The translations under genes were made by a program, and so were the position numbers. DNA of 64,000 nucleotides from Novosphingobium sediminicola (lineage in GTDB: Bacteria; Pseudomonadota; Alphaproteobacteria; Sphingomonadales; Sphingomonadaceae). Position 1 is the first letter of the stretch, and each line of letters starts with the position of its first letter. Shown one piece after another: positions 9,616 through 30,476 of this stretch. The notes beneath the pieces are model-generated. The model saw nothing but the letters and a program-made list of their open reading frames with translations, was not told the DNA's origin and did not search any database. The stretch lies in the NCBI RefSeq assembly GCF_014196525.1, contig NZ_JACIDX010000003.1, forward strand, positions 310,001 through 374,000. The letters run 5' to 3'.

Positions 9616-9749
9616 TATCGCGGGGATGCCTACCCGCAGGCGCGCCGCCCATGCGATGGATCCGTCACAGCAGGACGTCGGCGCCATCAACCGCCCGACG
9701 ACAGGGCCGCGCATGATCGCAGCGCCGGTCCCAACTCAGGGAGAAAACC

Positions 9750-10427: not shown

Positions 10428-10454
10428 AGACGCCTTCTCAAAGGGGCAAAGAAG

Positions 10455-10483
10455 CGCGGCGGGCCAAACCCGCCGCGTTTTTT
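10455..10483 (+). terminator. intrinsic terminator
   Basis: A perfect 9-bp GC stem (10455-10463 with 10469-10477), loop CCAAA, then six T. It ends the 7537-10427 operon. Confidence 0.9.
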
Positions 10484-10503
10484 GTGTCTATGTGATATGG
10501 CAT

Positions 10504-10540
10504 AAAAAGACCCCGGCGCCTTCTGTTGAAAGCGCCGGGG
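10504..10540 (-). terminator. intrinsic terminator of the minus operon
   Basis: Read on the minus strand, a 9-bp GC stem (10532-10540 with 10511-10519) is followed by a TCTTTTT tail. It lies just beyond the DUF1838 gene and ends the long operon coming from 21219. It faces the plus-strand terminator across about 20 bp. Confidence 0.88.
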
Positions 10541-10565
10541 CCAAGTGCGGGTTCGTATTAACGGA

Positions 10566-11456: not shown

Positions 11457-11478
11457 CGTTTTTCCCCCACTGTCGGGT

Positions 11479-13574: not shown

Positions 13575-14158
13575 AGATAGATCCACGGGCGCGCCGTGCG
13601 GTCGGCATGGGTCCATGCGGCGATGGCGGTGCGCGATTTCAGGGTAAGGTCGATGGCGTCCAGCCCTTCAAGGAGCATGTCCTTGGCCTCGGCCTCGATG
13701 GGGAAAGAATAGGTTTCATCGCCGCAGGTCAGCGTCTGGGCGGCAAGGTTGATATAGACCTCACGCCCCGCGATGCTTTCCACCGCCTCACGCGGCAGGA
13801 CCAGCGGGAGCAAGCCGTTGCGGATGCAATTGGCGGCAAAGATCGGCGCAAAACCGGGGGCAATGATGCAGCGCACGCCATATTCGGCCAGCGCCCAGAC
13901 GGCATGTTCGCGGCTGGAGCCGCAGCCGAAATTGGCGCCGCCCGCGATGATCCGCGCGCCCGCATATTCAGGCCGGTTCAGCACGAAATCGGGATTGGGC
14001 ACGCGCCCCTCGACATAGCGCCATCCGGCAAACAGGCCCTCGGCCAATCCGGTACGCCCGGTCGATTTCATCTCGCGGCTGGGGATGATGGCGTCGGTGT
14101 CGATATTGTCGAACATCATCGGCGCGGCGATGGCGGACAGGGTGGTAAAGGGGGTCAT
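13571..14158 (-). CDS. leuD: LeuD-like isopropylmalate dehydratase small subunit
   Basis: A 195-residue swivel-domain subunit of the aconitase superfamily (isopropylmalate isomerase type). DNIDTDAIIPSREMK, the loop GANFGCGSSREHAVWAL and GFAPIFAANCIRNGLLP are diagnostic. It pairs with the large subunit encoded by the overlapping gene before it (ATGA). No leuA or leuB is near, and the next genes are an HMGL-type lyase and a CoA-transferase. A catabolic hydratase for an unsaturated dicarboxylate (citraconate or dimethylmaleate type) is likelier than leucine synthesis. The symbol marks family membership only. Confidence 0.88.
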   Translation of the reverse strand: MTPFTTLSAIAAPMMFDNIDTDAIIPSREMKSTGRTGLAEGLFAGWRYVEGRVPNPDFVLNRPEYAGARIIAGGANFGCGSSREHAVWALAEYGVRCIIAPGFAPIFAANCIRNGLLPLVLPREAVESIAGREVYINLAAQTLTCGDETYSFPIEAEAKDMLLEGLDAIDLTLKSRTAIAAWTHADRTARPWIYL

Positions 14159-15537: not shown

Positions 15538-16565
15538 TACGCCGCACCCCCCAGATCGACGATGACCTTGCCGCTGGACGCGCCCGAAAGCAGGCGTTCG
15601 ACCGCATCGTAAATGCCTTCGAGGCCGGAAAAGCGCGGCGTGTCGAAATGCACCTTCACCTTGCCCTCGGCATAGAGCGCGAAGAGTTTTTCGCGGGCTT
15701 CGGGCCAATGCGGGGTCAGCAGGCCGTTCATGAAGCCGCGCACAGAAGCGCCCTTGTAATAGATCGCGTTGGCGATGCGCGGGCCGCTGATGATTTCGGG
15801 CACGCCGTTGAGATCGGCCGCCGCGCCGCCCACCACCAGCCGCCCATGGTTGGCCAGATTGGCAAGGAAGGCGTCGAAGATCGCGCCTGAAACGGTATCG
15901 ACCGCCACATCAATGGCATTGGGATATTCGCTGCCCAGCACCATGGCGACATCCTCGGCGCGATAGTCGATCACCCGCGTGGCGCCCAGCGAGCGCACGA
16001 AAGCGGCCTTTTGTGCGCCCCCGCAGACCGCCACGACATGGCATCCGCGCGCCGCCGCGATCTGGACGAGGAAATGGCCGAGGCCCCCCGCCGCCGCCGA
16101 AATCGCCACTGTCTCGCCCGGCTGCAATTGCCCGATGACGTCGAGCGCGACCATCGCCGAAACCCCGGTGCTGCACAGCGCCAGCCAGTCGGGATCGGCC
16201 GAGGGAACCTTCAGGAAATTGGCGGCGGGCGCGATATTGGCCTCGCGGTATCCGCCGGTAAAGCGCGTGGTGACCACCGCATCGCCCGGTGCGAAATCGG
16301 CAACGCCTTCGCCCACGGCCTCCACCACGCCCAGCGCCTCGACCCCGGTGTAGGTGGGCAGGGCGATCTTCACGTAATCGACGGCGTCGCGCGCGATCTG
16401 CGTGTCGAAAATGCCGTTGATCCCGCAATAGAGGTTGCGCACGCGCAATTCCCCCGGCGCCGGATCGCTCAAGGGCAATTCCCGGATCACGCAACCTTCG
16501 CGGAACGAGGGGGCGATGGTTTCAAGCCGGATCGCGCAGTAGGTGTTCAAGCCGGAAGTGCTCAC
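15537..16565 (-). CDS. zinc-free MDR-family oxidoreductase (quinone/enoyl reductase-like)
   Basis: A 342-residue medium-chain dehydrogenase/reductase. GroES-like N-terminal domain, then a Rossmann domain with ISAAAGGLGHFLVQIA (about 155-170) for NAD(P)H. No structural or catalytic zinc Cys cluster is visible, so it is likely a quinone- or enone-reductase type similar to prostaglandin-reductase-3-like enzymes. The start is GTG 16565, making a GTGA overlap with the FAD oxidase gene. In this operon it could reduce an activated double bond before the hydratase step. Confidence 0.82.
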   Translation of the reverse strand: MSTSGLNTYCAIRLETIAPSFREGCVIRELPLSDPAPGELRVRNLYCGINGIFDTQIARDAVDYVKIALPTYTGVEALGVVEAVGEGVADFAPGDAVVTTRFTGGYREANIAPAANFLKVPSADPDWLALCSTGVSAMVALDVIGQLQPGETVAISAAAGGLGHFLVQIAAARGCHVVAVCGGAQKAAFVRSLGATRVIDYRAEDVAMVLGSEYPNAIDVAVDTVSGAIFDAFLANLANHGRLVVGGAAADLNGVPEIISGPRIANAIYYKGASVRGFMNGLLTPHWPEAREKLFALYAEGKVKVHFDTPRFSGLEGIYDAVERLLSGASSGKVIVDLGGAA

Positions 16566-18169
16566 GCGGGAAAGCCCAGACAGCCGGGGTTCAACTGCCC
16601 CTTGGGATCGACCACCGATTTGACCGCGTCCAGCACGCGTAGGAAGGCCTCATCGCGGCTCTCGCGGTATTTGTACGAACGCCCGATCTGGAAATGGGCG
16701 CAGCCATAGCTCTCGGCAATCCGCTTCACCTTCTCGCGCGCGGCGGCGACCATGGCGCTCGCCTCGGGCGCATCGCCCAACTGCTTCAGGCGGGCCAGAT
16801 GCGCGGGTTCGACCATGCTTTCATGCACCGGGCGATAGCCCTGCGGCCAGAAGAACACCGGTTCCATGCACACGGCATTGTTGTGCAGCGTGGAGAAGAG
16901 GAAGCCGGTGTGGATGCCAAGACGGTCGAATTCGCTCGCCATCTCGTCGAAATAGGCCTTGATGTCGGCAAACATCTTGGGCGCGTTCGACAGTGAGACC
17001 TGACCATGCACCGGAATCCAGCTTTCGCCCTCGGGCCCAAGGATCGAGTTGGGCGGGGGGAAAGGCATCGCGCGGATCACCTTGGCGATGGTGTTGGCGA
17101 TTTCGACGCCGTCATATTGCGCGGCAATCTCGCGCGCCTTGGCGATGTCGGCGGCCACCGCTTCCTTGCAGCGACCCTCGGCGGTGATGTGGAGGGGATA
17201 TTCCTCCTCCTCGATAAAGCTGCGCCCGGCGGTGGCGATCTTGAGGCCGGCCTTGAGCGCGCCGAATACCGACTTTTCCTTGGCCATCACCGCGCCCAGC
17301 GCTTTGACGTCGTTGGTCATGCCCATGCGGCGCATCCGCACCTTGGTCAGGCCCGGATCAAAGCCGCAGGTTTCCGAGGCGATCCCGGCGCGCGCCATTT
17401 CCGCCAGCGCCTCCAGCATGATCGGCCCGGTCTTGAAGCTGAAGCTGACCGAATCCTCGAACTGCGGGCGGCGCATCAGGCGGAAAGTGACCTCGGCCTT
17501 GAGGCCCAGCGTGCCCGCATCGCCCATGAACAGGCCCGCCAGATCAGGGCCGTAATGACGATAGAAGGGCGTTTCCCCATCCGGTCCGCGCGCTCCGGTT
17601 TTCAGCACGCTGCCATCGGCCAGCACCATCGTGATCGCAATCACGCTTTCGGTCGAGGTGCCGTACTGTGCGCAACCGAACATGGCATTATGGTTCGACA
17701 GACCGCCGCCGATGGTCGAATATATCCCGCTCATCGGCCCCCAGAACGGCAGGCGCAGGCCCAGCGGCTGCAACGCATCGTCGATGGCCTTCCACGAGAT
17801 GCCCGCCTCGACGGTGATCGTCATATCCTCTTCGCGGATCGAAAGGATGCGGTTCATCCGCAAGGTGTCGATCGAAATGGTGGTATCGGTGGTCGGGATA
17901 TAGCCGCTGGTATAGGTCATGCCCGCGCCGCGCGGGGCAAGGTCCACGCCCGCCTCGACCGCGACCTTGACCACGGCGGCCAGTTCGGCGGTATTGCCCG
18001 GCGAAACGATCAGCATCACCGTATGGTCCGATGCGCTCCAGATGTCTTCGCTGAACAGACGGCGGCTCGCCTCATCCTCGCGCAGATTGGCCTCGCCCAC
18101 GATTGAGGCAAGGCGCGAACGCAGGTCGGCGGGGCAAGGGGCGGAAATTGTTGCGGTTTCCTGAGACAT
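16562..18169 (-). CDS. FAD-linked oxidase, VAO/GlcD type
   Basis: A 535-residue flavoprotein with an FAD_binding_4 (PCMH) domain, about residues 40-220, and a cap domain. The stretch APRGAGMTYTSGYIPTTDTT is the pyrophosphate loop, and GIYSTIGGGLSNHNAMFG follows. The C-terminal SVVDPKGQLNPGCLGF is typical of GlcD/4-cresol-dehydrogenase relatives, which oxidise alpha-hydroxy acids or p-hydroxybenzyl carbons. ATG 18169 is chosen because the in-frame extension to 18526 covers the promoter gap and operator. It is the first gene after a 94-bp gap and begins the operon that contains LeuCD. Confidence 0.87.
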   Translation of the reverse strand: MSQETATISAPCPADLRSRLASIVGEANLREDEASRRLFSEDIWSASDHTVMLIVSPGNTAELAAVVKVAVEAGVDLAPRGAGMTYTSGYIPTTDTTISIDTLRMNRILSIREEDMTITVEAGISWKAIDDALQPLGLRLPFWGPMSGIYSTIGGGLSNHNAMFGCAQYGTSTESVIAITMVLADGSVLKTGARGPDGETPFYRHYGPDLAGLFMGDAGTLGLKAEVTFRLMRRPQFEDSVSFSFKTGPIMLEALAEMARAGIASETCGFDPGLTKVRMRRMGMTNDVKALGAVMAKEKSVFGALKAGLKIATAGRSFIEEEEYPLHITAEGRCKEAVAADIAKAREIAAQYDGVEIANTIAKVIRAMPFPPPNSILGPEGESWIPVHGQVSLSNAPKMFADIKAYFDEMASEFDRLGIHTGFLFSTLHNNAVCMEPVFFWPQGYRPVHESMVEPAHLARLKQLGDAPEASAMVAAAREKVKRIAESYGCAHFQIGRSYKYRESRDEAFLRVLDAVKSVVDPKGQLNPGCLGFPA

Positions 18170-18240
18170 GACGGCCTTTCGGATCGAATGGGGTTTAAAA
18201 TAGGCAAGTGGACCGGGCGGCGGGGGGCAGGCGGAAGATC

Positions 18241-18257
18241 TATCCTCCTGTCGGATG
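18241..18257. promoter_or_regulatory. candidate operator, TATCC-N7-GGATG
   Basis: TATCCTCCTGTCGGATG lies 80 bp before the FAD oxidase start (18169), in the only sizeable gap of this minus-strand block. The spacer is near the reverse complement of the common GACAGGC. It implies an internal promoter for the oxidase-to-DUF1838 operon. Confidence 0.6.
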
Positions 18258-18263
18258 AAGCGA

Positions 18264-19634
18264 TCAGGCCACGAGGGCCGCCGCCGACAGACCCGCGAGC
18301 CGCCCCAGCGTGACCGCCGTGCACAGCCCCATCGCGGGCAGATAGCCCCAATGAGCAGGCCCCGAGACGCTGCGCGCCGCGCCGCCTCCGGCAAACAGAT
18401 TGGGCAATGGCGTGCCATCCTCGCGCAGCACGCGGGCCGCGCCGTCGATTTGCAGCCCGCCCTGCGTGTGATAGATCGCGCCCACCACCTTGAAGGCGGC
18501 CAAGGCGCCCTGCGGCGGGGCGGCATCGTCCCAGCATCGGCCCATGGTGTCGGGGCGGCCCTGCGCCTTGGCCTGCGCGGCTTCGGCCAGAGCGGCGGTC
18601 AGGGCCTCGGCAGGCACGCCGATGGACTGCGCCAGACAGGCCGCATCCGCGCCGCGTCGGGCCGCGTTCAGGCTGGCCAGCGTCTTCATTTCGGGCGTAT
18701 AGGCCTGCGCCGCATCGATGCGTTCATCAAGGATGACCCAGCACGGCCCCCCTTGCGCCATCACCGGGTGGACCATCCCGGCAATGTCCTCGCTCTCGTC
18801 GCAGAACCGTTCGCCCGCCGCATTGACGATGATCCCGCCATCGACAATCACGCCCGGCACCACCGAAATCCCCTGCTGATCGGTCAGCATGGCATAGCCC
18901 TGATAGGCCCCCATATCGCCCAACGCGGCCCCCAGTTTCCGCCCCAGCAGGACGGCGGTGCCATCGCTGCCCTCATGCCCATTGTTGCGGGCCTCGGCCA
19001 TCGAGGGGATATATTGCGCCAGCAGATCGTGGTTCGCCGCATAGCCCCCGCTGGCCAGGATCAGGCTCTCGCAGCCCACCTGCTCCACCGATCCATCGGG
19101 GCGGCGCAGGCTGACGCCCAACACGCGGCCCGCATCATCGGCATGGATTTCCACCAGCCGCGCGCCCAGCATCACCATCACGCCCTCATCCTCAAGGCGT
19201 TGGTGCAGCAGATCGACCATGTCCTGTCCGTCATGGCCGTGCCAGCCATGCATGCGATAGGTGGACAGGCCATAGGAGGGGCGGAAACCCATATCGAGTT
19301 CCCACGGCATCGACAGCCGCCCGGCCATCCAGTCCAGCGTCGGCCCGGAATGGTCGGCAATCGCGCGGGCGATGACCGGATCGGTGGCTCCGCGCGTCTT
19401 GGCGATGATGTCGTCGTAATAGGCATCGGCGCTGTCGCTGATGCCCTTGGCCGCCTGTGCGCGGGTGCCCGCCGCGCAGATCAGGCCCATCGACATGCCG
19501 GTCGTGCCCATGGGCCGCTCATCGGCCTCGACCAGCAGCACTTCGGCCCCGGCATCGCGGGCGGAAAGCGCCGCGATGCAACCGCAGGCGCCCCCTCCAA
19601 CCACCAGTACGGGAATGGAAAATTCAAATTCCAT
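18264..19634 (-). CDS. FAD-dependent oxidoreductase, fumarate reductase/ketosteroid dehydrogenase type
   Basis: A 456-residue flavoprotein of the succinate dehydrogenase/fumarate reductase flavoprotein superfamily. The dinucleotide fold is VLVVGGGACGCIAALSARDAG then VLLVEADE, with a Gly/Met-rich loop GTTGMSMGL. The C-terminal FAGGGAARSVSGPAHWGYLPAMGLCTAVTLG closes the FAD site. The family includes 3-ketosteroid dehydrogenases and soluble fumarate or urocanate reductases, all of which form or saturate a C=C bond next to a carbonyl. It overlaps the small unknown gene as TAATG, so they are coupled. Confidence 0.85.
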   Translation of the reverse strand: MEFEFSIPVLVVGGGACGCIAALSARDAGAEVLLVEADERPMGTTGMSMGLICAAGTRAQAAKGISDSADAYYDDIIAKTRGATDPVIARAIADHSGPTLDWMAGRLSMPWELDMGFRPSYGLSTYRMHGWHGHDGQDMVDLLHQRLEDEGVMVMLGARLVEIHADDAGRVLGVSLRRPDGSVEQVGCESLILASGGYAANHDLLAQYIPSMAEARNNGHEGSDGTAVLLGRKLGAALGDMGAYQGYAMLTDQQGISVVPGVIVDGGIIVNAAGERFCDESEDIAGMVHPVMAQGGPCWVILDERIDAAQAYTPEMKTLASLNAARRGADAACLAQSIGVPAEALTAALAEAAQAKAQGRPDTMGRCWDDAAPPQGALAAFKVVGAIYHTQGGLQIDGAARVLREDGTPLPNLFAGGGAARSVSGPAHWGYLPAMGLCTAVTLGRLAGLSAAALVA

Positions 19635-19996
19635 TAGCCTGCGTCCCGCACCATATCGTCGGCCATCTCACCGCTGGCCACATCATCGGACAGGGTGGCG
19701 GCCTCGTTCTCCTGCTGGACGATGCGCAGGATGCGGGCGATATATTCCTGGTTCCACATCTGCCGCTCGGCGCTGGCCGAGGCGTCGGGGGCAAAGGTGT
19801 CGATCTCGCCTTCCACCAGAACGCCCTTGGCCTTGAGCAGGCGTTCCAGCGTATCGGCGCGCTGATGCGCCACGGCCAGCTCCTGCATCAGGCTCATGGT
19901 GATGGCCAGCACGCGCTCGACCTGCGGATCAAGGAAATAGGGGCGCTTGCCGGCGGGCTTGGCTCCGGCTTCGTTCAGGGCGTCGTTAAAGCTCAT
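19634..19996 (-). CDS. small conserved-looking protein, function unknown
   Basis: A 120-residue, mostly helical acidic protein that I do not recognise. ATG 19996 is set by an ATGA overlap with the methyltransferase stop; its own stop overlaps the FAD enzyme start as TAATG. The middle part (FLDPQVERVLAITMSLMQEL, then VAHQRADTLERLLKAKG) suggests a helical hairpin or coiled coil, and the C-terminal third is rich in Glu/Asp/Ala. No signal peptide, membrane helix or Cys/His metal cluster is seen. Tight coupling on both sides suggests a partner subunit for the methyltransferase or the FAD enzyme. Confidence 0.65.
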   Translation of the reverse strand: MSFNDALNEAGAKPAGKRPYFLDPQVERVLAITMSLMQELAVAHQRADTLERLLKAKGVLVEGEIDTFAPDASASAERQMWNQEYIARILRIVQQENEAATLSDDVASGEMADDMVRDAG

Positions 19997-21219
19997 GCCA
20001 CAGCTCCGATCACATGCCATGCAGCCTTGCGGCCATAATCCTCGGTGTTGTCCTCGGCGGCGTCGGGAAAGATCTCGCGGTCCACCACGCCATAGACGCC
20101 GCCATGGATGATCTTGGCCCGATCGAACCCGGCGCGTTCCATTTCCGCGTCCAGATCCATCTCGTGCATCCGGCTCCAGAAGGGCTCGTTGTTATAAAAG
20201 GCATCCCAGTCGCGCATGGCCTGCTCGAACAGGGGCATGTCGGGGGCATATTGCGGTTGTTCGACATGCAGCACGATGCCGCCGGGCCGCAGCAGGCGGT
20301 GGCTTTCGGCAAAGATGTTGCGCAGCGCGCGGGTCGACAGTTCGTGCAGGAACATGGTCGTCTGCACCCAGTCGAAGCTGCCATCCTCGAAAATGCCGGT
20401 CAGATCCTCGGCGCTGGCCTGAACAAAGCGGACATTGTTGATCCCCAGCGATTTCGCCCGCGCCAGACCATAGCGCAGCACCGGCGCGCCCAGATCGACA
20501 ATCGTCAGTTCCGCATCGGGAAAGGCCGCCGCCAGCGGCAGGCTGGAATGGCCCACCGTGCCGCCGAATTCGAGGATCTTTTTGGGCGCGAAATCGGGCA
20601 GGTTTTTCTTCACCCACTGCACCACGGCATGCCCGCCGCCATCGGAATATTTGCCCAGCAAGCCGCCGGTGGTGACGAAACCGGCATGGTCGTAATTGGC
20701 GCCATTGGTGAAATCATCGGGTGCATATTCGCGGTGATAGCTGCCCGGCATGCAATGGTGATCGACCGCGGAAACATAGCGCGGGATCGCCAGCGCAGGG
20801 TTGAGCACCAGCCGGTCATCGCCTTCGATCAGCGCCTTGCCGCGTTCGTTCAGTTCTTCGCGCTGGCGGATCACGGTCCATCGGCCTGCCTGCTGGCGCT
20901 GCTCCATCGTCATGCGGCGCAGGGCCGACCATGTGCAGAACGCAGGGTCTTCCAGCATCGCCTTGCGCGCCTCGTGGCGGGTGGCGATGGGGCGGCCATG
21001 GGCGGCGGCAAAGCCGGGGGCGACCCGCGCGTCATAGGCGGCCTTGACGCCGGGCACGACGCGCGCGGCCAGATGGCGGTTCATCTGCGCCAGAAAATTG
21101 ATCCGTTCGATCTCATCATGGCTGGTTTGCGGAAAGACGCCATGGCGGCCGATCACCCGATAATCGGGCGGGCCATCATAGGATGCGGCGGGGCTGTTCG
21201 GGCGCTTGGTTTCGGCCAC
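19993..21219 (-). CDS. SAM-dependent methyltransferase with large N-terminal domain
   Basis: A 408-residue protein with a class I methyltransferase domain at about residues 200-330. Motif I is ILEFGGTVGHSSLPLA, the acidic residue lies in LTIVDLGAP, and LLRPGGIVLHVEQ is the post-core motif. The first 190 residues are not recognised. GTG 21219 is chosen because AAGGA lies eight bases upstream; an in-frame extension to 21300 has no ribosome site. It is the first gene of the minus block, divergent from the HapK-like gene, with an operator between. The methyl acceptor is unknown. Confidence 0.82.
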   Translation of the reverse strand: MAETKRPNSPAASYDGPPDYRVIGRHGVFPQTSHDEIERINFLAQMNRHLAARVVPGVKAAYDARVAPGFAAAHGRPIATRHEARKAMLEDPAFCTWSALRRMTMEQRQQAGRWTVIRQREELNERGKALIEGDDRLVLNPALAIPRYVSAVDHHCMPGSYHREYAPDDFTNGANYDHAGFVTTGGLLGKYSDGGGHAVVQWVKKNLPDFAPKKILEFGGTVGHSSLPLAAAFPDAELTIVDLGAPVLRYGLARAKSLGINNVRFVQASAEDLTGIFEDGSFDWVQTTMFLHELSTRALRNIFAESHRLLRPGGIVLHVEQPQYAPDMPLFEQAMRDWDAFYNNEPFWSRMHEMDLDAEMERAGFDRAKIIHGGVYGVVDREIFPDAAEDNTEDYGRKAAWHVIGAVA

Positions 21220-21319
21220 GGGGCTTGTCCTTGATTGTGTTTGCCGGGATGGGGGATTGCCTGTCGCGTGGGGCAAACCTAGCCCGACGGGCCGCTTCAT
21301 CCGAAAACCACCCCGGACC

Positions 21320-21336
21320 TGACCGACAGGCGGTCA
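21320..21336. promoter_or_regulatory. candidate operator, perfect palindrome TGACC-N7-GGTCA
   Basis: TGACCGACAGGCGGTCA is a perfect 5+5 inverted repeat (6+6 if the flanking spacer G and C are counted). It lies between the divergent methyltransferase (21219) and HapK-like (21412) genes, 84-109 bp from each. It shares the exact GACAGGC spacer with the sites at 9599, 44701 and 44822. Confidence 0.65.
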
Positions 21337-21411
21337 CACCGCCCCGCGCCCCTGCATCGCGCGGCCATTCCGGCCCAATTTCTCCGCCACACCCAGATGC
21401 GGAGAAGTGAG

Positions 21412-21720
21412 ATGCGGATTTTCGCCCTGTTCAACCTGAAGCCCGGCGTGGACGAGGCCGCCTACACCGAATGGGCCAAGACGGTGGACCTGCCCACGGC
21501 CAACGGGCTGCCCTCGATTGACTCGTTTCGCCTGTTCAAGACCACCGGCCTGCTGGGCAGCGACGCTAAGCCTCCCTACAGCCATATTGAAGTGCTCGAC
21601 ATTGCAGACATGGACCAGTTCGGCCGCGATGTGGCCACCGAGGCGATGCAGGCCGTGGCCGCCGCGTTTCAGGGCATGGTGGACGTGACCTTCATCACCA
21701 CGGATGAGATCGTCGCATGA
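21412..21720 (+). CDS. REDY/HapK-like small protein
   Basis: A 102-residue alpha+beta (dimeric ferredoxin-like barrel) protein. The pattern FALFNLKPGVDEAAYTEWAK, DLPTANGLPSIDSFRLFKTT and DIADMDQFGRDVATEAMQAV matches what I recall of RedY-like proteins (HapK), a group with uncertain catalytic role named from prodigiosin/tambjamine biosynthesis. ATG 21412 follows GGAG by several bases; a longer start at 21397 is less likely. It heads the plus operon and overlaps the SDR gene by ATGA. Confidence 0.72.
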   Translation: MRIFALFNLKPGVDEAAYTEWAKTVDLPTANGLPSIDSFRLFKTTGLLGSDAKPPYSHIEVLDIADMDQFGRDVATEAMQAVAAAFQGMVDVTFITTDEIVA

Positions 21721-22544
21721 GCGGTCGTTTCGCGGGCAAGGTGGCGGTGGTCACCGGCTCGGGCCGCCGGGGCGGTCTGGGCGAGGCGATCGCGCGACGG
21801 CTGAGCGAGGAGGGCGCAACCCTCGTCATCTCCGACATTGGCACCAGCCGCGATGCCGCCACACCCGACAGCATGATCGGCGGCACGGATGAGATGAAGG
21901 CCATCGCCGCGGACCTGCCTTCGCCTGCCAGCACCTGCGTCTGCGATGTGCGCGATCCCGACAGCGTTCGGGCGCTGGCCGAACATGCCGTGGCCGCGCA
22001 TGGCGGGCTGGACATCTGGGTCAACAATGCGGGCATCGGTTATATCATGAAGCCGCTGGCCGAAGTTTCGCCCGATGACTGGCGCGCGGTGATCGACGTC
22101 AATCTGACCGGCGCGTGGTTTGGCCTGCAGGCCGCCGCAGAGGTCATGGTGCGCCAAGGGCGCGGCGGGCGCATCATCAATATCGCCAGCCAGGCCGCCA
22201 AATCGGGCTTTCCCCATGCGCAGGCCTATACCGCCTCGAAACACGGGCTGGTGGGCCTGACCCGCTCGGCCGCCATCGAATTGGGCGAGCATGGGATTAC
22301 CGTCAACAACGTCTGCCCCAACCATGTGACGACCGGGCTCGGCGCATGGCAGAACGAGCATTTTGCGCAGCTTCAGGGCATCAGCGTCGAGGAATATCTC
22401 AAGCGCATGGCCGCGCGCATTCCGCTGGGCCGCCCCGGTCTGCCGGGCGATACGGCGGGCGCGGTGGCTTTCCTGTGCAGCGATGACGGAGCCTATATCA
22501 CCGGCGAAAGCATGAACGTGTCGGGCGGCGAGGAGCCGCATTGA
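21717..22544 (+). CDS. SDR family oxidoreductase
   Basis: A 275-residue classical short-chain dehydrogenase. The cofactor motif is TGSGRRGGLGEAIA, the NNAG motif is VNNAGIGYIMKPL, and the catalytic Ser and YxxxK lie in IINIASQA and YTASKHGLVGL. It oxidises or reduces an alcohol/carbonyl with NAD(P). It is coupled to the HapK-like gene (ATGA) and to the MmgE/PrpD gene (TGATG). Confidence 0.92.
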   Translation: MSGRFAGKVAVVTGSGRRGGLGEAIARRLSEEGATLVISDIGTSRDAATPDSMIGGTDEMKAIAADLPSPASTCVCDVRDPDSVRALAEHAVAAHGGLDIWVNNAGIGYIMKPLAEVSPDDWRAVIDVNLTGAWFGLQAAAEVMVRQGRGGRIINIASQAAKSGFPHAQAYTASKHGLVGLTRSAAIELGEHGITVNNVCPNHVTTGLGAWQNEHFAQLQGISVEEYLKRMAARIPLGRPGLPGDTAGAVAFLCSDDGAYITGESMNVSGGEEPH

Positions 22545-23905
22545 TGGCCCAAAATCCCGCTGAAATCCTTGTCGATCATGCGCTGGGCCTGCGCTGGGCC
22601 GATGTGCCGGGCGCGGCGCGCGAAAGGGCACTGGCTTTCCTGCATGACACGTTGGCGGTGGGCGTGGCAGGGGTGGGCGCGGCCCACGCCGATGCGGTGC
22701 TGACCATGGCGAAGGGCTGGGGCGCGGGGCGTGTGGCGGGCGTGCTGGGGCGGCCCGGCCTGCGCCTGCCGGTGGGTTCGGCGGCCTTTGTGAATGCCTA
22801 TCAGATCCATGGGCAGGAATTTGACTGCGTCCATGAACCTGCCGTGCTGCACCCGATGGCCACTTTGCTGGCGGCGCTGCTGGCCGAGGCGGCGCGGGGC
22901 GTGCCGGTCAGCGGCGAACAATTCCTGACCGCGATTGTGGCGGGGGTCGATGTTTCGGTCACGCTGGGTCTGGCGGCCCCCGGGCCGCTTAAATTCTTTC
23001 GTCCCGCAACGGCGGGGATCTTTGGCTGTGTGGCCGGGATCGCAGCGATGCTTGGGTTGGGGCGCGAGATGGCGCTCGATGCCTTTGGCCATGCCCTCGC
23101 GCTGGTTTCGGGCACGATGCAGGCCCATCTGGAGGGCAAGCCCGCGCTGCCGGTACAGGTGGCGGCGGCCGCGCGCAATGCGCTGGTGGCGGTCGATCTG
23201 GCGCGGGGCGGGATGCCGGGGGTGCGCGATCCGCTCACCGGGCCTTTCGGCTATTTCCCGCTGATGGAAGTGCGCGAGGAACTGGACGCGGCCATCGCCC
23301 TGCTGGCGCAGGGCCACCGGATTGCCGAGGTAAGCTGGAAGCCTTTCCCCACCGGCCGCGCGGGCCATGGCGGGATCGTGGCGGTGCAGCGACTGATGGC
23401 GCGCGGGCTGCTCGCGGAAAATGTGACGGCGCTGGAATATCACGCTCCGTCGCTGATCCATCGCCTTGTGGGCCGCCCGGCCAAGCCGGGGATGGAGGTG
23501 GCCTATGCGCGACTGTGCCTGCCCTATCTGGCGGCCAGCGTGCTGGTGCGCGGAGGCATCGGGCTGGGCGATTTCACGCGTGCGGCGCTGGACGATCCGG
23601 CGGTGCTGGCCATGGCGCGGCGGATTGCCGTGGTGGCCGATGACAATCCCGATGCGGCGGCCTTTGTGCCCGCCCGCGCCATGGCGATCCTGAGCAATGG
23701 CACGCAGATGATCGAGGATGTTTCGGCCCAGCTCGGCTCGCCCGCATGGCCTTTGTCGGCCCTTGAACAAGAGGCCAAGGCGCAGGCCTGCCTCGATTTT
23801 GCCGGTCTTGGCGCGCAGGCTGCGCCTCTGGCCGATGCCATTGTCGGGTTGGAGGCCGCGCCCGACGCGCTGGCCGCGATCTGCGCTGCGGGAGTGATGG
23901 GATGA
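22544..23905 (+). CDS. MmgE/PrpD family protein
   Basis: A 453-residue protein of the MmgE/PrpD family, which includes 2-methylcitrate dehydratase, cis-aconitate decarboxylase and iminodisuccinate epimerase. The pattern RERALAFLHDTLAVGVAGVG, then QIHGQEFDCVHEPAVLHPMATLLAAL (with the conserved His-containing segment) and the later WKPFPTGRAGHGGIVAVQ are typical. The true start is ATG 22544 (in TGATG); the TTG one codon earlier is ignored. It probably dehydrates or isomerises a polycarboxylic or amino-dicarboxylic acid in this pathway. Confidence 0.88.
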   Translation: MAQNPAEILVDHALGLRWADVPGAARERALAFLHDTLAVGVAGVGAAHADAVLTMAKGWGAGRVAGVLGRPGLRLPVGSAAFVNAYQIHGQEFDCVHEPAVLHPMATLLAALLAEAARGVPVSGEQFLTAIVAGVDVSVTLGLAAPGPLKFFRPATAGIFGCVAGIAAMLGLGREMALDAFGHALALVSGTMQAHLEGKPALPVQVAAAARNALVAVDLARGGMPGVRDPLTGPFGYFPLMEVREELDAAIALLAQGHRIAEVSWKPFPTGRAGHGGIVAVQRLMARGLLAENVTALEYHAPSLIHRLVGRPAKPGMEVAYARLCLPYLAASVLVRGGIGLGDFTRAALDDPAVLAMARRIAVVADDNPDAAAFVPARAMAILSNGTQMIEDVSAQLGSPAWPLSALEQEAKAQACLDFAGLGAQAAPLADAIVGLEAAPDALAAICAAGVMG

Positions 23906-24783
23906 CCTTGCTGAAATGCGCCACGCATGTTGTGGCCGATCTGGATGACGCGGTGGCGCGCTATGCCGCATGGATGGATTATGCCGTGGTGGAGCGCGGA
24001 CTGGTCGATGACGGGCTGGCCGCGCTGTGGATGGCGCCTGCCGGTGCGGGGCGGCGCTATGCGCTGATGCAGCCCGCTTCGGGCGCGCAGACTTTCCTGC
24101 GCTTTGTCGAGGGCGATGTGGTGGAGGATTACGCCCCCATCCGCTCCTATGGCTGGGCGGCGATTGAGCTTTGCGTTACCGATGTCGAAGCGGTGAATGC
24201 GCGGATGATGGCCTCTCCTTTCGAGATCATCGGCCCGCCCAAGCCTTTGGACGGTTTCGCCATCGTCAAACCGATGCAGGTGAAGGGCGCGGACAAGGAA
24301 GTGGTCTATCTGACCCAGATCCTTGCGCCCGGCGCCGAACATGGCCTGCCCGCGCCGCAATCGCTGGTGGACCGGCCCTTCATCATGGTGCTGGCCTGCC
24401 CCGATCTGCGCGCGGCGATGGATTGGGCGCGCGATGTACTGGGGCTGGAGGTGATCGATCCGGTGGCGATCCGCTATTCGATGATCGCCAAGAGTTTCGA
24501 CCTGCCCGAGGGTCAGAAGACCGAGATTTCGACCGGGCGCTGGGGCGATCACGTCTTTCTGGAATTTGACCAATATCCGCAAGGCGCATGCCCGCGTCCG
24601 CGCATCGAGGGCCAATTGCCGCCCGGCGTTGCCATCACCACGATGGAGCATCCCGATTTCGCGCGTCTTTCGCCCCATTGGGCTGTGCCGCCCGCCCCGC
24701 GTCAGGGCCTGCTGTATCAGGGCCGCCGCACCGGCATGTTGCTGACGCCTGAAGGCGCGCTGCTGGAGGTGATCGAAGCGTGA
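23902..24783 (+). CDS. VOC-superfamily protein with two glyoxalase-like domains
   Basis: A 293-residue protein made of two vicinal-oxygen-chelate modules. The first covers about residues 1-140 (starts CATHVVADLDDAVARYAAWM, ends before GADKEVVYLTQI), the second about 150-290 (RPFIMVLACPDLRAAMDWAR). The family includes extradiol dioxygenases, glyoxalases and epimerases. I cannot place a full set of metal ligands. Its stop overlaps the next hydrolase start as GTGA, and its own start overlaps the MmgE/PrpD stop as ATGA. Confidence 0.8.
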   Translation: MTLLKCATHVVADLDDAVARYAAWMDYAVVERGLVDDGLAALWMAPAGAGRRYALMQPASGAQTFLRFVEGDVVEDYAPIRSYGWAAIELCVTDVEAVNARMMASPFEIIGPPKPLDGFAIVKPMQVKGADKEVVYLTQILAPGAEHGLPAPQSLVDRPFIMVLACPDLRAAMDWARDVLGLEVIDPVAIRYSMIAKSFDLPEGQKTEISTGRWGDHVFLEFDQYPQGACPRPRIEGQLPPGVAITTMEHPDFARLSPHWAVPPAPRQGLLYQGRRTGMLLTPEGALLEVIEA

Positions 24784-25631
24784 TCATCCGCCGCGCCTTT
24801 GCCGATCTGCCCCATGGCCAGATGCATTATCGCCATGCGGGCGAGGGGTGTTTCGCGGGCGTGGCGGATGCCTTGCTGGTGCTGCATCCCTCGCCTGTGT
24901 CCTCGTGGCAAATGGTGCGGATGGTCGAAGGGCTTGCCCCGCTGGGCCGGGTGATCGCGCCCGATACGGCGGGTTGCGGCGACAGCGACCCTCTGCCGCA
25001 GGAGGCGCCCGCCATCACCGATTATGCCGCCGCCCTGCGCGATCTGATGGATGCGTTGGGGCTGGGGCGGGTGCTGGTTTACGGGATGCATACCGGGGCG
25101 GCGATTGCGGCGGAATTGGCCATTCTGGCCCCGGATCGCGTGGCAGGCGTGGTGGCCGACGGCCTGTCCGATTTCCATGGCGATGGGCTGGAGGAAGTCC
25201 TCACGCATTACGCCCCGCCTTTCCCGGCTGATCTGGATGGAGCCGGTCTTGCCCGCCTGTTTCAATTCTGTCGCGACCAGTTTCTGTTCTTCCCATGGTA
25301 TGCGCGCAGCGGGGCCGCCCGCCGCGACACCGGCCTGCCGCCGCCCGATGATCTCTATGGCTGGGTTGGCGAGGTGTTGAAGGCGCGCGGTTCCTATGCC
25401 CGCGCCTATCACGCCGCCTTTCGCTGGCGAGGGCGCGAGAGGCTGCCGCTGGTGGCCTGTCCGATGGTGATCACCTGCGGGGCCAATGACCCGCTCTATG
25501 CTGCAACCGAAAATGTGGCGCGCGATACGGGGGTGGGCTTGCGCCCGCTGCCCCGGTTTGATGCGCCTGATTATGCCGTCGCGCGCCGCGATCTGATCCT
25601 TGCGCTGGTCCCGCCTGATTCCGGTGCCTGA
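24780..25631 (+). CDS. alpha/beta hydrolase with His at the nucleophile position
   Basis: A 283-residue alpha/beta-hydrolase-fold protein, start GTG 24780 in GTGA. The oxyanion segment LLVLHPSPVSSW and the turn IAPDTAGCGDSD are normal, but the nucleophile elbow is VYGMHTGAA: His replaces Ser. An Asp is present in CGANDPLYA, but no C-terminal catalytic His is obvious (LPRFDAPDYAVARR). FCRDQFLFFP and the preceding HYAPPFP match the protein at 877-1746. Context is a coupled catabolic operon. A hydrolase, lyase or C-C cleavage role without a serine nucleophile is possible. Confidence 0.85.
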   Translation: MIIRRAFADLPHGQMHYRHAGEGCFAGVADALLVLHPSPVSSWQMVRMVEGLAPLGRVIAPDTAGCGDSDPLPQEAPAITDYAAALRDLMDALGLGRVLVYGMHTGAAIAAELAILAPDRVAGVVADGLSDFHGDGLEEVLTHYAPPFPADLDGAGLARLFQFCRDQFLFFPWYARSGAARRDTGLPPPDDLYGWVGEVLKARGSYARAYHAAFRWRGRERLPLVACPMVITCGANDPLYAATENVARDTGVGLRPLPRFDAPDYAVARRDLILALVPPDSGA

Positions 25632-25667
25632 TTCCGGGCCAGCCTGACATTCACGGAGAATTTCCCA

Positions 25668-26390
25668 ATGCAACAGCATCGCACCATCACCGGCAAGATC
25701 CTCTACACCTCGCGCAAGCCGGGGCGTGAGGGCGAGGAGCGCGGGCGCGAATATTTCACCTGGACCCATCACGCAGACGGCAAGAAGACCTTGCGCGCGC
25801 GCTGCGAGATCGACGAACCGGCCCCCACTGTCCACCGCGACATCACCTACAGCATGGACGAAAATGACATGCCGATGGACTGCTTCGTCCGTCTGGTGAT
25901 TGGCGACAAGTTCATGGGCTCGGGCTGGTTCCGTTTCACCCCCGATATGGTCGAATGCGAAAGCTATGGCCCCAGCATCGGCCGCCTGTCGCAGCGTATG
26001 CCGATCGAGGGAGAATTCGACGGCTTCGGCACTCACCCCATCGTGGCCGACGCCTATATCACTCGCAAGATCGACCGCGCCACCACCGAGCCGCGCAATT
26101 TCCGCTGCTTCCTGCCCTCGCCCGACCATCGCGGGGCCACGCCCCCGGTGATCGCCGAAAGCGTGATGCGGCTGGGCTATCTGGGGCAGGAAACGATCAC
26201 CGTTCCGGCCGGAACCTTTGATTGCCACAAGTTTGAATTCACCGATCCGCATGGCGCGATGGTCTCTGGCGGCCAGCCCCATCCGCCCTATGAACTCTGG
26301 GTCACGGCCGATGAGGATGGGATCTTCGTTCAGGGCGGCGTGGGCGGCTATATGCAGACCTGGTACGAACTGGTCGAGCTGTCACGCTGA
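25668..26390 (+). CDS. conserved-looking protein of unknown function
   Basis: A 240-residue protein that I do not recognise. It has no signal peptide or membrane helix. The sequence is rich in beta-strand-like stretches (KILYTSRKPGREGEERGREYF, CFVRLVIGDKFMGSGWFRF, ESYGPSIGRLSQR) and ends VGGYMQTWYELVELSR. The overall look is a beta-barrel lipocalin- or DUF3108-like fold (FDCHKFEFTDP resembles the DUF3108 ending), but this is a guess. ATG 25668 follows ACGGAGA. It lies between the hydrolase and the MFS permease gene, sharing TGATG with the latter, so it belongs to the same operon. Confidence 0.68.
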   Translation: MQQHRTITGKILYTSRKPGREGEERGREYFTWTHHADGKKTLRARCEIDEPAPTVHRDITYSMDENDMPMDCFVRLVIGDKFMGSGWFRFTPDMVECESYGPSIGRLSQRMPIEGEFDGFGTHPIVADAYITRKIDRATTEPRNFRCFLPSPDHRGATPPVIAESVMRLGYLGQETITVPAGTFDCHKFEFTDPHGAMVSGGQPHPPYELWVTADEDGIFVQGGVGGYMQTWYELVELSR

Positions 26391-27619
26391 TGGGCGCGCC
26401 GTTGGACAGCAGCCCGGTCGACAGCGCCAAGGGCTGGAGCGTCGTTCTGGCCGGGATGGTGGGCATCGCGCTGGGGCTCAGCCCGGTGCCTTTCTACACC
26501 ATCGGGATGTTCGCGCCCGAACTGGCGCGGGCCTATGGCTGGACCTTTACCCAGCTCATGACCTGCCTGACGGTGCAGACGACGGTGGTGGTGCTGTCGG
26601 GGCCGTTGTCGGGCTTTGCGCTGGACCGGTTCGGCGCGCGGGCGGTGGCGCTGTGGTCGGTGCCTTTGTTTGCGCTCTCCTTCATGAGCCTGGCGCTGAC
26701 CAATGGTTCCTTGCCGCTGTTTTATGCGCAATGGGCGGTCATGGGGTTGGTTGGTGCGGGCACGCTCAACGCCACATGGACACGGTTGGCCAATGCGTGG
26801 TTTTTCCGCCATCGCGGCCTTGCCATCGGGCTGGTCAGCGCGGGGACGGGGATCACCGGATTTGCGATCAAGCCCTTTGCGGCATGGCTGATCGGCCATT
26901 ATGGCTGGCGGATGGGCTTTGCGGTGATCGGGGCACTGCCGCTGGTGGTGGCATGGCCTCTGGTCTTTGCGCTGTTTCGCGCGCCGCCGGGCGAGGAAAT
27001 GCGCAGGGCGGACAGGGTGGGATTCGAACCCACGGTATGGGCGGTGATGGGCACGCGGCCCTTCTGGCTGATGGCGACGGCGTTTCTGTTGCTGCCCTTT
27101 GCCTTGACCGCGCCGATCCCCAATCTGGAAAATATCCTCAAAACGCAGGGCTTTTCCCTGCCGCAGATCGGCGCGGTGGCCTCGGCCTTCGGGCTGGCGG
27201 TGGTGGCCGGGCGCGTGGGCGGAGGCTGGGTGCTCGACCGGGTCTGGGCGCCGGGGGCGGCGTTTGGGGTGCTGCTGCTGCCGATGGCGGGCAATTGGCT
27301 GTTGGCCGGGCATGGGCTTTCGCCGGGCATGGCCACGCTGGCGATCATCGGCATGGGGCTGGGTTCAGGGTTTGAATTCGACCTGCTGGCCTATCTGGTC
27401 GCGCGCTATTTCGGGGCGCGGCATTATGGCGCGATCTATGGCTTTTTCTATGTGATGATCGCGATTGGCGCCGGGATTGGCCCGGTGGCGTATGGCAAGG
27501 TGTTCGATATGACCGGCGCTTATAGCGCCGCGCTGATGGGCGGAATCGGCTGCCTTGTGCTGGCGGCGCTGTTGCTTTTGGCGCTTGGCCCCTATCCGCA
27601 GGAGAAGGCGGGCGACTAG
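26390..27619 (+). CDS. MFS permease
   Basis: A 409-residue major facilitator with about 12 helices, of the monocarboxylate/oxalate-formate antiporter-like type. The loop 2-3 motif is GFALDRFGARAVAL. TM4-5 contains GLVSAGTGITGFAIKP. The central loop between the two six-helix halves (about residues 200-217) contains RADRVGFEPTVWAV, which is encoded by bases matching the 3' end of a tRNA-Ser on the other strand. The frame is intact across that segment. It is last in the plus operon from 21412 and converges on the dehydrogenase gene with an 17-bp gap. Confidence 0.87.
   Translation: MGAPLDSSPVDSAKGWSVVLAGMVGIALGLSPVPFYTIGMFAPELARAYGWTFTQLMTCLTVQTTVVVLSGPLSGFALDRFGARAVALWSVPLFALSFMSLALTNGSLPLFYAQWAVMGLVGAGTLNATWTRLANAWFFRHRGLAIGLVSAGTGITGFAIKPFAAWLIGHYGWRMGFAVIGALPLVVAWPLVFALFRAPPGEEMRRADRVGFEPTVWAVMGTRPFWLMATAFLLLPFALTAPIPNLENILKTQGFSLPQIGAVASAFGLAVVAGRVGGGWVLDRVWAPGAAFGVLLLPMAGNWLLAGHGLSPGMATLAIIGMGLGSGFEFDLLAYLVARYFGARHYGAIYGFFYVMIAIGAGIGPVAYGKVFDMTGAYSAALMGGIGCLVLAALLLLALGPYPQEKAGD
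27008..27037 (-). other. tRNA-Ser 3'-end-like fragment inside the MFS gene
   Basis: Read on the minus strand, these about 30 bases give a T-arm stem-loop GTGGGTTCGAATCCCAC followed by CCTGTCCGCC, as in the T-arm and 3' acceptor strand of a bacterial tRNA-Ser. The expected 5' half, anticodon arm and long variable arm are absent. It is in frame with the MFS gene, encoding ADRVGFEPTV in the central loop. Such 3' tRNA fragments are typical of integration (att) cores, so it may mark an old integration or recombination event. No integrase is present. Confidence 0.6.
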
Positions 27620-27636
27620 GCCCGCCTGCGCGCTGT

Positions 27637-28656
27637 TTATTCCGAAACGCGGATCAGGATCTTGCCGACATGGCTGCCTGATTTCAGATGAGCATAAGCC
27701 GCCGGGGCCTCGTCAAAGGCAAAGGTGCTGTCGATCACCGGCTGGATATTCTGCTGCTCGATGGTGCGCACTAGGCGGGCCAGCATCGCGCGGCTGCCCT
27801 CGGCAATGCCTTTGAGGACAAGGTTCTTGTAGATCACCAGGCCGACATTGATCGCCGGGGCACCCTCGCGCGGGGCCACGCTGATAAAGCTGATGCGCGC
27901 ATTGGCGGCGGCGGCGAGGATCGATTTGGCATGGGTGTCATAGCCGCCGGTCTCGACGATAATGTCCGCGCCCGCGCCGCCGGTGGCCTTCATCACCTCG
28001 GCCTCCCAATCGGGATTTGTGCGATAGTTGATGGTGATATCCGCGCCCAGCTTGCGCGCCAGTTCGAGCTTTTCATCGCTGGACGATGTGATGATAACCC
28101 GCGCCCCATGCGCCTTGGCGATTTGCAGCGCCCAGATCGCCACGCCCCCCGTGCCCAGCGCCAGAACGGTGTCGCTGGCCTTGATCTGGCCGACCTCGAC
28201 CACCGCGTGCCATGCCGTCAGCGCCGATGAGGCGAGCGGGGCGACCTGTTCATCGGACAGGCTTTCGGGCACCTTGACCAGCGCGGCGGCGGGAACGCGA
28301 ATATATTCGGCCAGCCAGCCATCATGGGTGATGCCGTAATCCACGCCGAAATGGCCGAGCGAGAAAGCCCCGTCGATCCAGTTGACGAAATGAGCAAAGA
28401 CCGCCCGGTCGCCCAAGGCCAGACCGGAGACGCCTTCACCCAGTTCTACCACCTCGCCCACGCCTTCGGAGACGGGGATGCGGTTTTCCGCCTTTTTCGC
28501 GCCATAGCGGCCTTCAAGCACCTGAATGTCGCGGTTGTTGAGCGCGACGAGGCGGGTTTTGAGCAGCACCTCGCCAAAGCCGGGTTTGGGCGTTTCGCGC
28601 GTGACGGCGTGCAGGCTGTCCAGCCCGGTTTGCGGGCCGATTTCATAGGCTTTCAT
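27637..28656 (-). CDS. MDR-family alcohol dehydrogenase/quinone oxidoreductase-like
   Basis: A 339-residue medium-chain dehydrogenase/reductase. The N-terminal GroES-like part has LNNRDIQVLEGRYG and IPVSEGVGEVVELGEGV; the Rossmann part has VLALGTGGVAIWALQIAKAHGA. The Cys-rich structural zinc loop is missing, so it resembles zinc-independent members. It follows the deacetylase gene by six bases and has its own AAGGAT ribosome site. It is last in the operon that begins with the amidase gene. Confidence 0.85.
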   Translation of the reverse strand: MKAYEIGPQTGLDSLHAVTRETPKPGFGEVLLKTRLVALNNRDIQVLEGRYGAKKAENRIPVSEGVGEVVELGEGVSGLALGDRAVFAHFVNWIDGAFSLGHFGVDYGITHDGWLAEYIRVPAAALVKVPESLSDEQVAPLASSALTAWHAVVEVGQIKASDTVLALGTGGVAIWALQIAKAHGARVIITSSSDEKLELARKLGADITINYRTNPDWEAEVMKATGGAGADIIVETGGYDTHAKSILAAAANARISFISVAPREGAPAINVGLVIYKNLVLKGIAEGSRAMLARLVRTIEQQNIQPVIDSTFAFDEAPAAYAHLKSGSHVGKILIRVSE

Positions 28657-28662
28657 GTCGGA

Positions 28663-29583
28663 TTATCCTTGGTTTGCCGTAAAGGCATCGAAAATGTCGC
28701 CGCCGCGCGCGAACCATGTGTCGGGGCGGGCGGCCAGATCGGCCAGCAGCCCTTCGAACGCATCCATCCGATAGGGCAGGCCGATGATATAGGGCGTGAG
28801 ATGGAGCGGCAGCATCCGCCCGCCGCCCTGCGCCTGTGCCTCGGCGCTCAGCCAATCATGGGCGTCGAGCACCTGCTGCGCATAGGAATCGACCGACTGC
28901 TGCTGAACATTGATGATCTGGCGGTCGGACAATTCGTGGTTGAGCGGGATGTTCACGAGCCCATTGCTGAAGGCAAAGGGCATTTCGTCATTCGCCCAAT
29001 CGACGCAGTAATCGACGCCCGCCTCCTTCAGCAGATCGAGCGTGGCAAAACTTTGCGAGCGGGCGATGGAATGCCACCCGCGCGGACGCCGGCCTGTGGC
29101 CTGCTCCAGCGTGGCAAGGCTCTCGGCTATCAGCGCGCGTTCCTGCTCCACCGGCAGGGTTGAGGCGATGGTGCCGTTCATGTCGGTGCTGTGGGCGATG
29201 ATCTCGTGGCCCGCGCTCAGAATATCCGCGATGATCTGGGGATAGCGCTGGGCAATCGCGGCATTGACCGCAACGCTGACCTTGGCCCCCACCTTATCAA
29301 AGGCATCGAGCAGCCGGTAAAAGCCCACCCGCGTGCCATATTCGCGCGAGGTGTAATGGCGATAGTCGGGATAGGCGGTCTGCATATGGCCCGGCGCGCG
29401 GAAGGGCGTGTCGGAGGGGGTAATCGGAAACCATTCGAGGCTGACCGTGAACCACACCGCCACCCGCCGCCCGCACGGCCATGCCAGAGGCGCGCGCTTG
29501 GGCAGGGGCGCGTAAGGGTAAAGCGCGTGGTCATAGCCCAGTCCGCGCTTGGCATATTCCAGATAGGTTGGGTCGAGGCTCAT
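28663..29583 (-). CDS. polysaccharide-deacetylase-fold hydrolase (PuuE-like)
   Basis: A 306-residue member of the carbohydrate esterase 4 fold, closer in layout to PuuE allantoinase and cyclic-imide hydrolases than to true deacetylases. The first motif Asp pair is replaced by VSLEWF, and the metal motif is EIIAHSTDMNG. The C-terminal PLHLTPYIIGLPYRMDAFE holds a conserved His. Imidase/allantoinase members open cyclic amides. It overlaps the neighbouring paralog by ATGA, so the two probably form a heteromer or act on successive imides. Confidence 0.8.
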   Translation of the reverse strand: MSLDPTYLEYAKRGLGYDHALYPYAPLPKRAPLAWPCGRRVAVWFTVSLEWFPITPSDTPFRAPGHMQTAYPDYRHYTSREYGTRVGFYRLLDAFDKVGAKVSVAVNAAIAQRYPQIIADILSAGHEIIAHSTDMNGTIASTLPVEQERALIAESLATLEQATGRRPRGWHSIARSQSFATLDLLKEAGVDYCVDWANDEMPFAFSNGLVNIPLNHELSDRQIINVQQQSVDSYAQQVLDAHDWLSAEAQAQGGGRMLPLHLTPYIIGLPYRMDAFEGLLADLAARPDTWFARGGDIFDAFTANQG

Positions 29584-30476
29584 TGTCCGCCCTCCTGCGC
29601 GTCATACCATGCATCGGCGATATCGCCCGCTCGCGTGATCCACGCGCGTCCGCCTTCTCCGGCATCCGCCGCGATATGGCGCAACACTTCCTCAAACGGC
29701 CCAATGCGATGGGGCTGGCCGATCAGATAGGAATGGAGCGGGATGCACATCACCGTGCCGCTTTCCTCCGCCGCCAGGCGCTCATATTGCCGGATCAGGG
29801 TCTGGGCATATTCGCGCGGGCTCATATTATAGATGAAGAAGCCGTAGTGGTCGTTGACCTCTAGGCTGTAGGGCATGGAAATCAGGCGGCCTTTTGCGAC
29901 CTTCACGGCAAAGGGCTGATCGTCGTGATAGAGGTCGCAGGTGTAATCCATGCCATATTCGGCAATCAGATCCAGCGTGCGCGGAGTATGCGTCAGCGCA
30001 GGGGCCAGCCAGCCCCGGATCGTTTGCCCCGTGGCCTCGCGCACGGTGCGGATCGAATCCTCGATGATCGCGCGCTCTTGGGTCTCGTCCATGCCATAGG
30101 AGTAGCGGGTGTTGTAAATGCCATGGCTGAAGAACTCCCAGCCGCGCGCATTGGCGTCGGCCACCACATCGGGGTGGTGCTGACACAGCGCCACCGACAG
30201 GCTGACCGAGCCGGGAAAGCCATGTTTGCTCATCACATCGGCCATGCGCCAGTGGCCCACGCGATTGGCATGGTCGCGGTGAGCATAGCCGACCACATCG
30301 GGGTGGGGCTTGGCCCATGATTTGCGATGCGGATTGGCGGGCGGGTCGATCTCGTAATATTCCAGATTGGGCGAGATCCACACCGCCACCTTCTTGCCGC
30401 CCGGCCAAGCGAAAGGCTTGCGCGCGCGATAGCGCTGGAATTCATAGAGTTCCGGGTCTGGGGCGCCTTCACGCAT
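29580..30476 (-). CDS. polysaccharide-deacetylase-fold hydrolase (PuuE-like), paralog
   Basis: A 298-residue paralog of the next gene. Visible landmarks are VAVWISPNLEYYE at the first motif, EFFSHGIYNTRYSYGMDE for the His motif, ATGQTIRGWLAPALTHTPRTLD, and IPLHSYLIGQPHRIGPFEE at the C-terminus. It overlaps the amidase gene by eight bases at its start and the second deacetylase gene by ATGA at its end. With the N-carbamoylsarcosine-amidase-like enzyme, this suggests opening of a cyclic imide or ureide and removal of ammonia. The substrate is inferred, not known. Confidence 0.8.
   Translation of the reverse strand: MREGAPDPELYEFQRYRARKPFAWPGGKKVAVWISPNLEYYEIDPPANPHRKSWAKPHPDVVGYAHRDHANRVGHWRMADVMSKHGFPGSVSLSVALCQHHPDVVADANARGWEFFSHGIYNTRYSYGMDETQERAIIEDSIRTVREATGQTIRGWLAPALTHTPRTLDLIAEYGMDYTCDLYHDDQPFAVKVAKGRLISMPYSLEVNDHYGFFIYNMSPREYAQTLIRQYERLAAEESGTVMCIPLHSYLIGQPHRIGPFEEVLRHIAADAGEGGRAWITRAGDIADAWYDAQEGGQ

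Follow-up and report, generated by a model that had tools for sequence, protein, structure and literature searches.

A 30-bp tract identical to the 3' end of tRNA-Ser(UGA) within a permease gene, possibly copied from the tRNA gene

A permease gene with a perfect tRNA-Ser match in its central loop

The DNA analysed here, referred to as the window, is a 64-kb part of contig C3 of the host genome (G000). This genome is a draft of 55 contigs, and the host and each species compared are represented by one genome. The window carries an intact gene for a permease of the major facilitator superfamily (MFS), whose residues 26-365 match Pfam MFS_1 (E 9.9e-38) and whose named closest relatives belong to Novosphingobium species (Table 1). 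Inside this gene lies a tract identical at 30/30 positions to G000 C29:1307-1336, the 3' end of a gene called by ARAGORN as tRNA-Ser(tga) at C29:1306-1395 on the minus strand. The match runs antisense to the tRNA and in frame with the permease. Shared with the tRNA gene are the CC of the encoded CCA, the discriminator base and the 3' acceptor strand, followed by the T-arm and another 3 nt; the last A of CCA differs at the permease site. An earlier sequence-only reading had described about 30 bp of a tRNA-Ser 3' end, T-arm plus acceptor, lying antisense and in frame within an MFS gene that stays open, and alignment with the host's own tRNA-Ser bears out each of these points, well beyond the 20 identical bases that it had named as a threshold.

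Table 1 Features of the permease locus, in window coordinates
Feature	Position	Strand	Remarks
MFS permease ORF, 409 aa, intact	26390..27619	+	Open frame; Pfam MFS_1; two sister species have orthologues of 96% aa identity
Neighbouring changes, GATGCCCTG in both relatives to GAGGAAATG here	26992..26999	+	Codons 202-204; origin unexplained
Equivalent of the host's own 14-bp att core	27006..27019	+	13/14 matched here
Equivalent of the G066 20-bp repeat	27006..27025	+	19/20 matched here
30-bp match, base for base, with the host's tRNA-Ser(UGA) 3' end	27007..27036	- (tRNA sense)	Lies over permease codons 206-216 (plus strand)
Three-way difference G/C/A; tRNA base in the window only	27008	+	Species comparison
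Three-way difference G/T/A; tRNA base in the window only	27019	+	Species comparison
Two adjacent bases AT (tRNA bases); GG in both sister species	27022..27023	+	Gives F at residue 212; the relatives have A and V

Codons 206-216 read R-A-D-R-V-G-F-E-P-T-V, and V-G-F-E-P-T is the kind of peptide that arises from antisense reading of such tRNA ends. The tract sits between predicted helices H173-195 and H223-239, and structure prediction assigns residues 203-212 a pLDDT below 50. Across the permease family the loop varies in both length and sequence (alignment of orthologous loops with row L080 left out), in keeping with the variable central loop containing RVGFEPTV that had been proposed. The variability of the loop and the preserved reading frame are, we infer, why the tract is tolerated. 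Nothing points to a function for it, and it presents as a harmless-looking curiosity.

Nothing suggests a tRNA gene at the site itself. ARAGORN found 0 tRNAs in the window and none around the site in L146 and L179; the tract lacks a complete cloverleaf and is thus not a functional tRNA gene. A 17-base stretch of the T-arm occurs at two places only in G000, the permease and the tRNA-Ser gene. Shorter similarities were also recorded. A 13-base copy of the tRNA-Ser 3' end lies outside any tRNA gene at window 14131-14143; it is also present in sister species G132 and looks like a chance match. We considered and rejected it as a paired att site: G132 has the same bases, G115 (the other sister species) has them with one difference, and the tRNA match stops a few bases further on. 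Just downstream of the tRNA match, permease positions 27042-27061 are identical over 20 bases (E 0.003) to C29:6497-6516 on the tRNA-bearing contig, which is probably a coincidence.

We estimated how often such matches arise by chance by comparing all 30-mers of the window with 2280 tRNA 30-mers drawn from 24 distinct tRNA genes (31 loci, both strands; the genome lists 53 tRNA hits, duplicates included). Counts, which include the overlapping frames of the site itself, were 350 at 20/30, 52 at 21/30 and 12 at 22/30. A binomial tail fitted at 21/30 gives expectations per genome of 0.41 at 25/30, 0.025 at 26/30 and 8.6e-9 at 30/30, values that are model extrapolations for the 24 tRNA genes.

The tract also appears to be unusual among related genomes. 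We searched for the shared 27-mer with any base but G after it, G being the continuation in the host tRNA; this pattern detects only fragments reaching at least GGT. It occurs in 4 of 195 genus genomes, three times in true tRNA-Ser genes that continue with A and once in the window. Family-wide, 397 genomes, 10 of which are also in the genus set, yielded 34 matches, namely the window and 33 others, and all 20 examined from these 33 are tRNA-Ser. In another genus genome, a 22/25 match to the same tRNA-Ser end lies outside any tRNA gene (L151; G080 C1:1704170).

Orthologues and lineage-specific changes

Permease matches at E 1e-90 or better are present in 24 of 195 genus genomes, host included. 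The closest are those of the sister species G115 and G132; the next closest reaches 65% amino-acid identity. The sequence-only reading had proposed to check whether orthologous permeases lack the segment; both sister species carry it at the same length, each with 25/30 bases matching tRNA-Ser. They encode R-V-G-x-E-P-T-V with codons that are mostly those of the window, not the unrelated codons that the sequence-only reading had said would count against it, and residues 207 and 212 are different in each of the three species. The longest block identical to the tRNA is 12 bp in G115 and 10 bp in G132. It is 13 bp in inferred ancestors and by count at most 15 bp, if the tRNA base already stood at 27008 and 27019. 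Over the matched part, the tRNA-Ser gene is identical in G000, G115, G132 and G171, so the putative donor has not changed.

These comparisons leave little room for an inserted fragment. The window shows no length gap against G115 or G132 and no gain against the outgroup permeases L065-L067, whose loops are longer than the window's by 2 residues. Since the segment is equal in length in both sister species, the permease has not been split by insertion in this lineage. The surrounding DNA aligns in one piece with G115 over 9764-29697 and with G132 over 9631-29547, about 20 kb each, and no inserted element was found at the permease within these alignments. All three outgroup loops carry V-E-P at this place, which means that part of the look-alike is ordinary permease sequence. 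The longer G-V-E-P occurs in L065 and in G132 and is missing from the window. Codons 203-204 encode A-L in G115, G132 and L065 and E-M in the window, which argues that the window state is derived.

Four sites are at issue, 27008, 27019, 27022 and 27023, two of them third codon positions. If the window lineage is not the outgroup, the ancestor already matched the tRNA at 26 to 28 of the 30 bases, and templating may have to explain no more than two changes. Changes to the donor state in one lineage are clear at two sites and three-way at the other two, under weak rooting. The permease gene tree has a FastTree support of 0.251 at the relevant node, and outgroup parsimony singles out none of the three species. 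Only the tRNA locus, which is separate from the permease, gives a grouping: with G171 as outgroup, it places the window species with G132 by 28 sites versus 5 and 4.

The changes are clustered with others just upstream of the tRNA match. In the neighbouring segment, the window differs at 26995 and at 26997-26999 (three C-to-A changes in a row), and at 26992 all three species differ. With three-way sites counted, no other 33-bp stretch in 20 kb holds as many window-lineage changes as 26992-27024, which has 9 against 8 for the next elsewhere; when the count is confined to sites at which the relatives agree, it holds 6 against 7 at 14353. Because of this run of 7, and of 9 changes that the G115 lineage shows in one run at 28342, clustering alone is only mild evidence for an event. 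A copied tract reaching on into the tRNA 3' flank was considered as a source of this GGAAA cluster: 141 of 2000 shuffles of the flank aligned as well with the window's sequence as the flank itself, and 1714 of 2000 did so with the G115 sequence. A search of the genome for a template of the neighbouring cluster returned nothing convincing, the best partial match covering 29 bases at 86% (E 0.0099), with another at E 0.069.

The tRNA-Ser(UGA) end as an integrase target

Integrases use tRNA 3' ends as att sites, as the sequence-only reading had noted, and this genus provides examples at the tRNA in question. We examined 30 genus loci called by ARAGORN, 26 of tRNA-Ser(UGA) and 4 of tRNA-Ser(CGA). 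Full tyrosine integrases, in which Pfam recognises the arm, central and catalytic domains, lie within 1.5 kb of the 3' end at 3/26 tRNA-Ser(UGA) loci (G066, G076 and G079), and a fourth of the 26 (G078) has partial integrase matches. Candidate distal att repeats accompany two of these: in G066 a 20-bp repeat 65 kb away, with a 14-bp match at 72 kb, and in G079 a 15-bp repeat 40 kb away.

The host itself carries such an element. At the tRNA-Ser site of G132 (C28), the host's element is absent, and the flank that adjoins the tRNA there is found in G000 at C17:116488, joined to a 14-bp core, TGGCGGACAGGGTG. A 402-aa tyrosine integrase ORF follows the core at this position, and an AlpA-type regulator lies on the tRNA side of the element, at C29:1306. 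An integrative element therefore sits at the tRNA-Ser(UGA) end in the host genome, and this 3' end is a genuine integrase target.

The permease fragment reaches the tRNA 3' end, up to the CC of CCA, as a fragment of a tRNA gene split off by an island would. The other end of the host's tRNA element is at C17:116488, not at the permease, and no integrase-bearing element between tRNA gene and fragment was found in the ~20 kb around the site aligned with G115 and G132. We also rejected an att scar of the host's own element as the sole source of the tract: its 14-bp core ends at the position equivalent to 27019, and since it stops before 27022-27023, the host element alone cannot have supplied those bases. 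The suggestion that the tract is a relic of element movement thus stands in part, in that the tRNA end is an integrase target, and falls in that no fragment was inserted in the permease.

Origin of the tract and comparison with known systems

Our preferred reading, which we hold tentatively and at somewhat less than even confidence, is that a short tract of tRNA-Ser(UGA) was copied over a look-alike in the permease loop in this lineage. A look-alike of the tRNA-Ser end, similar apparently by chance, would have pre-existed in the variable central loop, as the 25/30 match in both sister species suggests. With the tRNA-Ser gene as template, the tract may then have been rewritten, either when a polymerase switched templates while replicating DNA or repairing a break, or through ectopic gene conversion of a short tract, and the differences would have changed together in one event. 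We regard template switching as the most likely mechanism, because the prior identity blocks of 10-15 bp fall below the 23-90 bp given for E. coli homologous recombination in the available part of PMC3758752. Classical RecA conversion is disfavoured: none of the blocks inferred before the event, including the upper bound, attains the 23 bp at the lower end of that range. As a possible but less supported variant, the overwrite may have been set off at the look-alike by an integrase that targets the tRNA 3' end.

An unlikely alternative places the copying earlier, with a tRNA-Ser 3' fragment overwriting or entering the loop in the ancestor of the three species, kept perfect here by luck and decaying to 25/30 in the two others. 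The weak rooting of the gene tree leaves space for this history, which accounts without coincidence for the 25/30 bases common to both relatives. It calls, however, for changes at the same four sites in both relatives, and for identical replacements there at 27022 and 27023, unless the stretch is common to them by descent. The loop has no extra length relative to the nearest outgroups, and V-E-P in L065-L067, together with G-V-E-P and A-L in L065, fits the relatives better than the window.

A look-alike that already stood at 26 to 28 of 30 might instead have been completed by ordinary point mutation in a loop that changes fast, an origin that we consider improbable. The starting point is easily had, as a 25/30 look-alike is not rare at the expectation given above; the loop is variable, half of the sites at issue are third codon positions, the case was picked from a large scan and very many genomes raise the odds of one such find. 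The final step is where chance is disfavoured by the numbers, with the fitted expectation for 30/30 given above and a path from a 26/30 ancestor at 1e-9 to 4e-7 under three rate assumptions.

More doubtful still is a footprint left by an integrase. In this reading, an element with 19 bp or more of the tRNA end in its attP, a length suggested by the repeat in G066, would have entered the look-alike and excised imprecisely, leaving bases of attP in place. The use of this tRNA end by integrases of the genus speaks for it, as do the candidate distal att repeats in G066 (20 bp) and G079 (15 bp), and all four sites fall within the stretch equal to the 20-bp repeat. Mycobacteriophage precedents cut both ways in the available text of PMC1762012: Ms6 has a 26-base core and L5 vectors integrate at a one-mismatch site, but an Ms6 site with 1 mismatch in 26 went unused, and the ancestral look-alike had 2-4 in 30. 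The host element's core ends before 27022, and the permease region shows no element, running in one piece against each relative over ~20 kb. It is conceivable, in a draft of 55 contigs, that assembly or polishing put tRNA sequence into the permease gene by mistake, yet the open frame, the flanks continuous with two species over ~20 kb and the neighbouring lineage-specific changes outside the tRNA match make such an artefact very unlikely.

Summed over the overwrite in this lineage, the older origin and the integrase footprint, tRNA templating of some kind, at some time, is probable. A far broader proposition, to which we give little credence, is that tRNA genes overwrite chance look-alikes in protein genes with tRNA-cutting integrases as the trigger, turning the site into a near-perfect second attachment site in a coding gene and its mRNA into one bearing a 30-nt perfect complement of tRNA-Ser. 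If templating is true, conserved RNA genes can imprint short perfect tracts on unrelated coding genes, leaving clustered mutations that would be counted as independent substitutions and that island finders filter out, and the case would illustrate the origin of a secondary integration site within a gene. If the match arose by chance, it is no more than a striking coincidence.

Among the matches listed in our literature searches, nothing specific described a tRNA fragment converted into a bacterial coding sequence. The nearest parallels, in the accessible portions of PMC3758752, PMC8604942 and PMC12619124, are ectopic gene conversion and template-switch multinucleotide mutation, in which a short tract is copied one way from similar sequence elsewhere, several adjacent differences take on the donor state and the donor stays unchanged. 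Here, unlike in those conversions, the donor is a tRNA gene, the recipient is an unrelated protein-coding gene and the identity blocks span 10-15 bp.

Fragments of tRNA genes catalogued by Islander, as the available part of PMC4383910 describes them, likewise comprise a 3' portion lying away from the tRNA gene in a genus that uses that tRNA for integration. The present fragment differs in lying inside a conserved coding sequence with no island found beside it. It falls within the MFS_1 match and so fails Islander's stated filter for coding sequences, which requires a position outside conserved domains and would discard such a fragment (PMC4383910).

The att core of mycobacteriophage Ms6 comprises T-arm and acceptor end (PMC1762012, in the part available), the same sub-location as here, and the permease offers the sequence equivalent of such a core except for the last base. 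Unlike the Ms6 core, the genus repeats here are 14-20 bp. Finally, AntiFam collects spurious ORFs over tRNA genes, in the portion of PMC9710616 at hand, and the V-G-F-E-P-T peptide is also found in the permease translation; unlike the AntiFam cases, the permease ORF is genuine, a conserved MFS gene.
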